A DNA stretch of 64,000 nucleotides, from contig JAMCTA010000136.1 in the NCBI GenBank assembly GCA_023381895.1, positions 15,220 to 79,219 of the forward strand, in the 5' to 3' direction. A model generated the notes under the pieces. It was not told the origin of the DNA and made no database searches. It was given only the letters and a program-made list of their open reading frames with translations. The stretch comes from Chloroflexota bacterium (GTDB lineage Bacteria; Chloroflexota; UBA4733). This document shows positions 10,210 to 45,721 of this stretch, one piece after another; within the stretch, counting starts at the first letter, position 1; every line of letters begins with the position of its first letter. The position numbers and the translations under genes were made by a program.

Positions 10210-10283
10210 GGACGATTAGCTCAGCTGGTCAGAGCGCGCGGTTCACATCCGCGAGGTCGCTGGTTCGAGCCCAGCATCGTCCA
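10210..10283 (+). tRNA. tRNA-Val (anticodon CAC)
   Basis: A full cloverleaf can be drawn. The acceptor GGACGAT pairs with ATCGTCC, the D stem is GCTC/GAGC, and the anticodon stem CGCGG/CCGCG has loop TTCACAT (anticodon CAC, reading GUG). The T stem is GCTGG/CCAGC with loop TTCGAGC, and the discriminator is A. The CCA end is not encoded and is followed by a T-rich run. It lies 37 bases before gdpD. Confidence 0.95.
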
Positions 10284-42683: not shown

Positions 42684-42791
42684 GAGCTAGGAGTAGCGCG
42701 CAATCGTCGTGGCGACGGTTGAGGTGGAAGAGCTGTCGCGCGGAGTTCGGTAAGCTCAGACACACTTACGGAGCAGGCGCGGAGAGTGACG

Positions 42792-44714
42792 ATGGTGATC
42801 AAGTTTTCTCTCGGAGCTGACGTGCTGGCGCGTAAGCCGGACTATATCGTCGGCGTGGTGGTGGCTCGCCAAGCAGACAATCGCCGTCACGGCGATGTGG
42901 CAGCCCGGCTGCTCCATCAAGCTGCGGAAGCGGCGCGTTGGCATGTTGATGACGGCGGTCTCGCAGCAGCGTGGTTTGAAGCGCTACGAGAATTCGGTGT
43001 GGATCCGGCGGCGCATCCTCCAGCGGTGGAGCGCCTGCTCGAGCGGGTTCGGCGTGGTGAGGCATTGCCGAGTGTCAATCCGGCAGTCGACCTGGCAAAT
43101 GCTGTATCGCTCCGGTACCACGTCTCGCTCGGGGTACACGATCTCGAGCAGACGCGTGGGAGCCTGAGTGTTCGCCTGGCCCGATCAGGAGACACGTTCC
43201 TAGCCCATGGCGCAGACACACCGGAAGGAGTTCCTGCTGGAGAGCCAGTCTATGTCGATGAGCGGGACGTGCGCACGCGCTGGTGGGTGTCTCGCCAAAG
43301 CCAGGGAGGCCGGGCTTTACCTCGGTCCCACCTCCTCTTTTTTCCCATCGACGGCTTTTCCGGGGATCGGGAGCGCATACAACAAGCTGCGGCTGAGCTT
43401 GCTCAACTCCTACATGAACATCTCGGAGCTCGCACCGCTTTTCACCTTCTCGACCGCACGTGCCCTGAGTGTGTGCTCCTCCACTTTCCGTTGCTCAGTC
43501 GCGTCCCGTCCGGCGGGGACGCCATAGACGAGCTCCTTGGGCGCGGTGTCGTTGACATCATCAAACGTGAGGAGATCGAGCCGAGACTGCGCAATGGTGA
43601 GAAGCTGAAGGTGAAGCTGGGGATGGATCCTACCTCATCACGAGTTCACCTTGGACGGGCGACCCGTCTCTTCAAGCTACGAGAGTTTCAGCTCTTGGGG
43701 CACACGATTCAATTCGTAGTCGGCAGCTTTACAGGAATGCTGGGGGATCCATCAGATAAGAAGGCAACACGGCAGCAGCTGACAGCGGCTCAAGTGCAGA
43801 AGAACATGGCGTCCTACTCTACCCAGGCTGGCCAAGTTATTGACATAAGTAAAGCAGAGTTGCACTACAATGCTGACTGGCTCGCTCCCCTCACCTTTGC
43901 GGAGGTCATCGAGCTAGCTGCTAACTTCACTGTGCAGCAGATGATCGAGCGGGAGAACTTTCATGGCCGCTACGTAGCGGGCCGTCCGATCTACCTCCAC
44001 GAGCTTCTCTATCCCTTATTGCAGGGGCAGGACTCGGTGGTCTTACAGAGTGATGTGGAGCTCGGAGGCACGGATCAGCTATTTAACATGCTTGCTGGCC
44101 GTGTGCTCCAGGAGCGGGCCGGGCAGCAACCGCAGACGGTGATCACCGGTCCCCTTATCCCTGGAACTAATGGCGACAAGATGTCCAGCAGCGAGGGGAA
44201 CGTCATCAATGTGCTGGACTCCCCGCGCGACCAGTACTTCAACCTGATGAGGATGCACGACGATCTCATCGTGACGTACTTCGAGACGTGTACAACGGTT
44301 CCGTTCACGGAGGTGCGAGAGCTCGCGGAGGATCTCGAAAGTGGACGCTTGAACCCCCGCAATGCCAAGGCCCGGCTCGCTCGTACGATTGTCACGCAGT
44401 TCCATTCCAAAGAGGATGCGCTTGTCGCGGAGAGAGAGTTCGAGCGCGAGGTGCGGCAGCACGAGCGGCCGGCAGAGATTGCGAACGTAACGCTTGCCGG
44501 TGGGGCTCGCAAGCTAGCAGACCTGGTATACGATCTCGGCCTGGTGAACACTAAAGCTGCGGCACGCCGGCTTGTGGAACAGGGAGGGGTAGCGATTGAC
44601 GGTGTACGCATCACCACTCCTCAAGAAGCGGTAGAGCCGCGGGACGGCATGGTTGTGCGGGCTGGGAAGGCTGGCTGGGCACGTGTTCGAGTTGCAGCTG
44701 CTGCGTCTCGGTGA
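42792..44714 (+). CDS. tyrS: Fusion of a solo B3/4 domain with tyrosyl-tRNA synthetase
   Basis: One reading frame of 640 aa joins two modules. Residues 1-200 match the solo B3/4 (PheRS-beta-like, COG3382) family: VGVVVARQADN, AWFEALREFGVDP, SVNPAVDLANAVSLRY and the final LLFFPIDGF. After a linker with a CPEC pair (about 235), the TyrRS begins (IDELLGRGVVDIIKREEIE). It has HLGR at 286-289, GDPSDKKATR, ELGGTDQLFNMLAG, KMSSS at 463-467 and an S4 RNA-binding domain (about 575-638). ATG 42792 follows GGAG; a GTG at 42786 is possible. B3/4 in PheRS hydrolyses mis-acylated Tyr-tRNA(Phe), so an editing or amino-acid-sensing role is inferred, not shown. Confidence 0.9.
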   Translation: MVIKFSLGADVLARKPDYIVGVVVARQADNRRHGDVAARLLHQAAEAARWHVDDGGLAAAWFEALREFGVDPAAHPPAVERLLERVRRGEALPSVNPAVDLANAVSLRYHVSLGVHDLEQTRGSLSVRLARSGDTFLAHGADTPEGVPAGEPVYVDERDVRTRWWVSRQSQGGRALPRSHLLFFPIDGFSGDRERIQQAAAELAQLLHEHLGARTAFHLLDRTCPECVLLHFPLLSRVPSGGDAIDELLGRGVVDIIKREEIEPRLRNGEKLKVKLGMDPTSSRVHLGRATRLFKLREFQLLGHTIQFVVGSFTGMLGDPSDKKATRQQLTAAQVQKNMASYSTQAGQVIDISKAELHYNADWLAPLTFAEVIELAANFTVQQMIERENFHGRYVAGRPIYLHELLYPLLQGQDSVVLQSDVELGGTDQLFNMLAGRVLQERAGQQPQTVITGPLIPGTNGDKMSSSEGNVINVLDSPRDQYFNLMRMHDDLIVTYFETCTTVPFTEVRELAEDLESGRLNPRNAKARLARTIVTQFHSKEDALVAEREFEREVRQHERPAEIANVTLAGGARKLADLVYDLGLVNTKAAARRLVEQGGVAIDGVRITTPQEAVEPRDGMVVRAGKAGWARVRVAAAASR

Positions 44715-44843: not shown

Positions 44844-45721
44844 TTAGCCCCCATGTATCTGCCAGTGCAACGTGGGTCCACGTTGCACTGGATATTCAAG
44901 GATGTAGTCTTGGGGAGCCGCGCCGACTTCTTCGATCGCCTGAAAAATGGCCCTTTGGAGGAGCGGAGCATCAGGACTCGCTGCAACCCAGTTGAAGAGG
45001 CTCGATACCATCTTCAGACGGGCAGGCGTGCTTGCGCAAATGTGCACAATGTTGCGCAAGGTCTGACTGGGCACGTCGGTCATAGCCAGGAAGATGAGGG
45101 ACACCGAGAACCGGGTCACGATGTGGGGGACGTCCGCTTTGCTCCCTACTACGGCAATCCTATGGATCTTCTTGCCGAACTTCTTCGGATCGTCGCCAAT
45201 GAACCCGACAATGACATACTTACTGCCCTCCTCTTGGTTGAGTAGACGCCATGCCAGCACCCGTCCGCTCTCCCCAGTGCCGCGGCGCGCCGGCGACCGA
45301 TCGTTCGCCGCAACCCCCTAGCCAGCCGGGTGCGGTAGCGGGTGAGGACGAAGAGGCAGAAAGAGAAGAATGTGCTCAAAAAGATGACGCTTATGGGTAA
45401 GGGCTGCACGCCGCCTAGTCCGAGCAAGAGGTCGAATACGCTGCCGAGGCCCCCCCACGTCATCGAAGAGAACAGGATGATGGTGATATCGTCAACGCTT
45501 GCATAGCGCCACACTCGCCGGTCGAGGCCATACAAGGCGTTGACGAGAAGAAATAGAAGGATGAATAGCGGAATGGCAGGAGCGAAGAGCGCGCCCCATT
45601 GAGCAGTGGGCAGCGCCAGCATGCGGAAAAGTAGCGCGAGATAGAGGGAAGCGGCGACCGTTATCCCGTCGATGACGATCCAGGGCACAAAGCTCTGGAT
45701 GCGACGAAGTGCAGCATTCAC
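44844..45721 (-). pseudogene. Broken CapD/FlaA1-like polysaccharide biosynthesis protein
   Basis: The first frame (GTG 45721, after GAGGAG) encodes four TM helices (VIDGITVAASLYLALLFRML to SVIFLSTFFSFCLFVLTRY), the membrane part of nucleoside-diphosphate-sugar dehydratases such as FlaA1/CapD/WbpM. The Rossmann motif GTGESGRVLAWRLLN, with YVIVGFIGDDPKK, then appears in a different frame. The shift lies near 45,280-45,300. The second frame stops at 44844, long before the catalytic SDR domain (complete members are about 600 aa). It is therefore frameshifted and truncated. The 30-bp palindrome sits at its end. Confidence 0.7.
44862..44891. repeat. Perfect 30-bp palindrome
   Basis: CCAGTGCAACGTGG (44862-44875), two bases GT, then CCACGTTGCACTGG (44878-44891). 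The arms pair exactly, giving a 14-bp stem with almost no loop. It lies at the 3' end of the decayed CapD-like gene. It lacks a T-tract, so a simple terminator is not the best reading. Confidence 0.85.

Follow-up and report, generated by a model that had tools for sequence, protein, structure and literature searches.

A natural fusion of a CtdA-like B3/4 domain to the tyrosyl-tRNA synthetase of a Chloroflexota lineage, a putative cis-editing enzyme

Introduction

B3/4 domains have been described in the beta subunit of phenylalanyl-tRNA synthetase (PheRS) and in CtdA, a canavanyl-tRNA-Arg deacylase that works as a free protein, deacylating the analogue-bearing tRNA and leaving the cognate one (PMC10018355). 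In the B3/B4 domain of PheRS, Glu334 and Gly315 are reported to bind the para-hydroxyl of Tyr. Asn250 of the Thermus thermophilus enzyme is thought to help place the catalytic water (PMC12447630, PMC3275996), and changing beta-Gly318 of the Escherichia coli enzyme to Trp lowered editing more than 70-fold (PMC4066437). An archaeal B3/B4 module of PheRS has been placed in an engineered tyrosyl-tRNA synthetase (TyrRS) to destroy Tyr-tRNA-Tyr (recounted in PMC3275996). The gene described here, located in a 64,000-nucleotide stretch of a Chloroflexota contig (JAMCTA010000136.1, positions 15,220 to 79,219; hereafter the window), joins a B3/4 domain to TyrRS in one reading frame.

An editing domain joined to a synthetase is a known kind of arrangement; what is new here is the synthetase, which is described as having none. 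In the titles and abstract starts of the best-ranked matches in open PMC, a collection that leaves subscription journals mostly outside, we found no description of a natural B3/4-TyrRS. We propose, with a probability of roughly 60%, that the protein is the housekeeping TyrRS of its lineage equipped with a cis-acting post-transfer editing domain.

Results

The fusion gene (42786..44714, plus strand, as are all its parts below) encodes 642 amino acids from a GTG at 42786 or 640 from an ATG at 42792, where the database copy P0001 begins; residue numbers follow the 640-residue form and Pfam ranges the 642-residue form. A CtdA-like B3/4 (PF03483) domain (42792..43466, residues 1-225) is followed by a linker (43467..43514, residues 226-241), by the catalytic and anticodon-binding part of TyrRS (43515..44450, residues 242-553) and by the S4 domain (44508..44645). 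Pfam matches B3_4 over residues 66-200 (7.4e-16, 58.7 bits against a cut-off of 29.3), tRNA-synt_1b over 271-553 (5.1e-61) and S4 over 575-620 (5.7e-9, 36 bits), and the NCBIfam model TIGR00234 (tyrS) scores 305 bits against a curated cut-off of 113.8. The single frame that the first-pass annotation had read from the letters, with a B3/4 domain (COG3382, presumably the label of the solo B3/4 family) ahead of a TyrRS with intact HLGR, KMSSS and S4, is thus borne out in full.

The HIGH-type motif HLGR (43647..43658) and the KMSKS-type motif KMSSS (44178..44192) were read from the sequence. Among 138 fused proteins, patterns found the former in 125, with H, R or N as fourth letter, and the latter in 124 (70 KMSKS, 50 KMSTS and 4 KMSSS), so that the variants of the window protein are not defects. 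A Y-x3-Q-x2-D motif, which we take to be the tyrosine pocket, occurs in 137 of the 138 and reads Y407-Q411-D414 here; the corresponding residues named for E. coli TyrRS are Tyr175, Gln179 and Asp182 (PMC9050441). The linker, counted from residue 226 to 242, varies from 11 to 78 residues among 33 fused proteins, which suggests a tether and not a rigid interface and fits a swinging CCA end.

The fusion recurs well beyond the window. A search with the N-terminal part returned 34 proteins including the window's own, for each of which the precomputed Pfam assignments show both domains, and a search from a distant member gave 158 matches, with both domains in each of the 120 listed; joined, the two yield at least 138 distinct proteins with PF03483 at the N terminus of TyrRS, in searches that by design see only proteins near the fused length and in which not all candidates were scored. 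Where an organism is given, their source names read Chloroflexota or Chloroflexia. Among 301 genomes, drawn evenly from the phylum of a Thermomicrobium (G011) and completed with genomes met earlier, nine carry the fused gene (G001-G005, G091, G122, G207 and G285), a lower bound since at most nine first-look candidates were scored per genome. A fuller scan found it in 7 of 29 genomes of the class of G003, the same seven as in the phylum sample, and it is present in one of three in the class of G001. How common the fusion is in relatives, which the first-pass annotation had left open, can hence be answered: it is a clade feature.

A 616-residue frame in G068 was rejected as a fusion: a long upstream reading ends there in a solo domain, and the locus has no TyrRS. 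TyrRS matches also lie in frames of 727, 728 and 625 residues (G154:C1:1097301-1098413, G231:C1:331638-332759 and G136:C30:31879-33093), where no B3/4 match is listed; these are other TyrRS extensions or spurious frames. P0142, a protein of 340 residues in which both Pfam domains occur, has the NCBI name "phenylalanine--tRNA ligase beta subunit-related protein, partial", so annotation hides the family.

Each of the nine fused genomes holds exactly one TyrRS match at E <= 1e-40. The cell therefore probably relies on the fused enzyme as its TyrRS, which would charge tRNA-Tyr with Tyr. In five of them (G001-G005), only the fused copy and PheT score above the Pfam B3/4 cut-off, whereas in six Thermomicrobium-type genomes (G006-G011) the B3/4 copy beside PheT is a solo one and an unfused TyrRS lies elsewhere; across these eleven genomes, the same type of B3/4 domain occurs either on its own or attached to TyrRS.

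We call this shared type HD-type, a name coined here after its Gly-x-His-Asp motif. Conservation was tabulated for 137 fused domains and 115 solo proteins, after P0142, P0143, P0209 and envelopes shorter than 200 residues had been dropped. Asn103, Gly114, Thr162, Arg163, Trp165 and Asp187 are invariant in the fused domains, with Pro185 at 99% and His116 at 98%, and all eight are invariant in the solo proteins. Another 17 Chloroflexota solos retain Arg163 in 100%, Asn103 in 88%, Gly114 in 82% and Trp165 in 70%, but Thr162 only in 47% and His116, Pro185 and Asp187 in 11% each.

The predicted fold of the domain, in the whole-fusion model and in a domain-only model, is that of CtdA (PDB 9f7e and 9mkl), at about 25% identity. 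The closest fold match of the whole-fusion model is T. thermophilus TyrRS (9sdf, 1h3e), an enzyme without a B3/4 domain; its PDB match list has no PheRS row, and the domain-only model served in its place. Unlike CtdA, the domain is fused to TyrRS and has no riboswitch in sight nearby, and unlike the PheRS domain it has TyrRS as partner. Aligned with T. thermophilus PheRS, the invariant Asn103 falls on Asn250, while Glu334 falls on Pro185 or Phe184 and Gly315 on Trp165, by sequence mapping only. The beta-Gly318 position corresponds to Arg168 in an ungapped hhalign stretch and to a gap in MAFFT. With the equivalents of Glu334 and Gly315 replaced, L-Tyr is not expected to be accepted by the pocket in the manner of PheRS, in keeping with an enzyme that has to preserve Tyr-tRNA-Tyr. 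Trp165 and Arg168 mark a solo-type pocket and not an adaptation to TyrRS, since both lie in the stretch shared with CtdA. The active-site comparison proposed in the first-pass annotation thus gives a divided answer, with Asn250 kept and Glu334, Gly315 and, as discussed below, T249, H261, E323 and T354 replaced.

In a TyrRS tree of 73 sequences, built by a quick method and rooted for drawing only, all 37 fused proteins (32 of the 138 from the database and 5 genome copies) fall on one side of a branch with an SH-aLRT support of 83. They adjoin the unfused TyrRS of the six Thermomicrobium-type genomes and of G039; beside the six Thermomicrobium-type rows, the tree holds 30 unfused TyrRS chosen as best-scoring, not at random. 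In a tree of 102 B3/4 domains, 45 of the 138 fused and 40 of the 118 remaining solo domains (P0142 and P0143 left out; alignment A1 lacks P0013) split from the 17 other Chloroflexota solos with a support of 99. The fused label changes three times on this tree. As we read it, one change comes from P0209, a "solo" of 211 residues that lies within the fused clade, is encoded on a contig of 1141 bases and probably represents a fragment of a fused gene; another comes from two solos, P0227 and P0228, whose position among the fused domains is weakly supported (84 to 87). A single fusion event is the simplest reading, though not proven, and the placement of P0227 and P0228 leaves room for repeated fusion or for a subsequent separation.

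The solo HD-type proteins (e.g., of Thermomicrobium) share H116, T162, R163, W165, P185 and D187 with the fused domains and lie on the same side of the well-supported branch. Their genes are separate, and no TyrRS gene was found, when tyrS proximity was sought, in the fetched loci L006-L011. In L006, L007, L009, L010 and L011, the solo gene has, judging from the translations, a glycosyltransferase-like gene on one side and dapA/dapB-like genes on the other. Source names for solo B3/4 proteins are "DNA/RNA-binding domain of Phe-tRNA-synthetase-like protein" and similar.

Downstream of the fusion gene (44844-45721, minus strand), two overlapping open reading frames in different frames, 45149-45721 and 44844-45260, resemble by eye pieces of the N-terminal half of a membrane sugar epimerase, perhaps one broken gene, and no Pfam match at 0.001 is obtained for either. 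At about 44862-44891, two 14-base arms, noticed by eye, form a perfect inverted repeat around a centre of 2 bases, CCAGTGCAACGTGG-GT-CCACGTTGCACTGG.

Discussion

In the mechanism that we favor, the TyrRS site would charge tRNA-Tyr, at times with a tyrosine look-alike, and the mischarged CCA end would swing out of the synthetic site to reach the B3/4 pocket on its tether. There, the invariant Asn103 and surrounding residues would hold a water molecule in place for hydrolysis of the ester. Cognate Tyr-tRNA-Tyr would be spared, as the pocket lacks the residues with which PheRS recognises the para-hydroxyl of Tyr. TyrRS is able to use both the 2'- and the 3'-hydroxyl. The 2'-hydroxyl is the one charged by class I synthetases and by PheRS (PMC7373986), and a 2'-ester is believed to be required at the B3/4 site of PheRS (PMC12447630), so that a B3/4 domain suits TyrRS chemically.

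The likely substrates are oxidised tyrosines of the L-DOPA type or D-Tyr: at Tyr sites in E. coli, L-DOPA was incorporated and m-Tyr was not (PMC9050441), and T. thermophilus TyrRS, an enzyme described as having no editing domain, favours L-Tyr over D-Tyr just 19- to 24-fold (PMC6765224). TyrRS-linked proofreading, suggested in the first-pass annotation, remains the best explanation, but the two substrates put forward there are unlikely. With Phe as substrate, no reaction of the E. coli enzyme was detected (PMC9050441), which speaks against Phe-tRNA(Tyr). Tyr-tRNA(Phe) is improbable since PheRS retains its own editing site in the fused genomes checked: the PheT editing residues are invariant in an eight-row alignment (G002-G009), and PheT of G001 keeps them with Ser for Thr at two positions. 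Loss of PheRS editing was accordingly discarded, the residues being kept in all nine genomes examined, among them five of the nine fused ones.

Several observations weigh against our proposal. L-DOPA did not inhibit the growth of E. coli (PMC4066437), so a need for L-DOPA editing is unproven, and D-Tyr is weakened as the main target by the presence of D-aminoacyl-tRNA deacylase (DTD, PF02580) in 7 of the 9 fused genomes. Function does not depend on fusion, since the six Thermomicrobium-type genomes hold the domain and TyrRS apart. The pocket itself differs from that of bacterial PheRS: T249 is mostly Ala, H261 is Gly, T354 is mostly Ala and E323 is replaced by Lys/Arg or by Gly depending on the method, in a mapping whose register is uncertain (hhalign probability 64%, E 6e-5).

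A special case of cis editing, in which the domain acts on D-Tyr-tRNA-Tyr and replaces or backs up DTD, appears unlikely, although it is the strongest of the alternatives. It draws on the poor discrimination of T. thermophilus TyrRS, the closest fold match, and on our failure to find DTD in two of the nine fused genomes, G207 and G001, the latter being the window's nearest relative among the loci fetched. Such a gap in a draft genome may reflect incompleteness, however, and with DTD in 281 of the 301 genomes overall there is no clear replacement; loss of DTD in fused genomes, absent in 2 of 9 only, was not retained.

The replaced residues T249, H261, E323 and T354 could instead mean that the domain does not hydrolyse at all and is an extra tRNA-binding or amino-acid-sensing module. 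We consider this rather less likely still, given that the pocket-region residues are invariant in the 137 fused domains and common to the 115 solo proteins, as in a working site, and that active CtdA likewise lacks T249 and H261, its aligned chains having Tyr at 249 and Gly at 261. Gly at position 261 is natural in archaeal and eukaryotic PheRS (PMC3275996).

Slightly less credible again is a trans-editor riding on TyrRS and acting on another tRNA, either canavanyl-tRNA-Arg, as CtdA does and as the common predicted fold and the free action of CtdA might suggest, or Tyr-tRNA-Phe, as PheRS does. The fused domains, together with the solos that resemble them most, split from the 17 other Chloroflexota solos, and most fused sequences read GxHD and RTRRW where two CtdA chains read GGEN and TCRRW; these CtdA letters are a marker of our own, taken from the two PDB chains, and not an established definition. 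G285 holds the fused gene and a separate second B3/4 copy, a hint of two roles, and the five fused genomes checked all have a PheRS-beta that retains its editing residues. At the Rfam gathering threshold, no riboswitch or T-box was found in the window, which yields only a tRNA (10210-10283), or in 11 related loci, which yield only tRNAs.

A sequencing or assembly error, or an internal start giving two proteins, has practically no chance of being right, since the identical fusion occurs in 138 database proteins and nine genomes, some copies lying on contigs longer than 1 Mb (P0021, P0115), with both domains kept while the linker varies in length. That recurrence in independent sequences rules out the missing base that the first-pass annotation had raised as an objection. 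Its other concern, internal initiation, is conceivable from the sequence, which has candidate codons in frame: GTG 43473 and TTG 43491, close to the junction, have no obvious ribosome-binding site by eye, and starting at GTG 43611 or ATG 43623, inside the catalytic domain, would remove about the first 35 residues of TyrRS, so that the ATG gives no complete separate enzyme.

If cis editing by the B3/4-TyrRS is correct, the protein would be the natural counterpart of the engineered chimera, which likewise carries B3/4 on TyrRS; the chimera is man-made, takes its module from archaeal PheRS and destroys cognate Tyr-tRNA-Tyr, as a natural sole TyrRS cannot. TyrRS is described as lacking an editing domain and relying on DTD for D-Tyr, as T. 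thermophilus does (PMC6765224), and an active natural fusion would break this rule. More tentatively, at somewhat below even odds, the fused enzymes would make up the first family of TyrRS to proofread at a site of its own, and the solo HD-type B3/4 proteins, also outside Chloroflexota, would be editors of mischarged tRNA-Tyr that spare Tyr-tRNA-Tyr. The fusion gives this large group of solo proteins a testable partner, TyrRS with tRNA-Tyr, and for the expansion of the genetic code it could supply an editing module with a built-in tolerance of Tyr-tRNA-Tyr.
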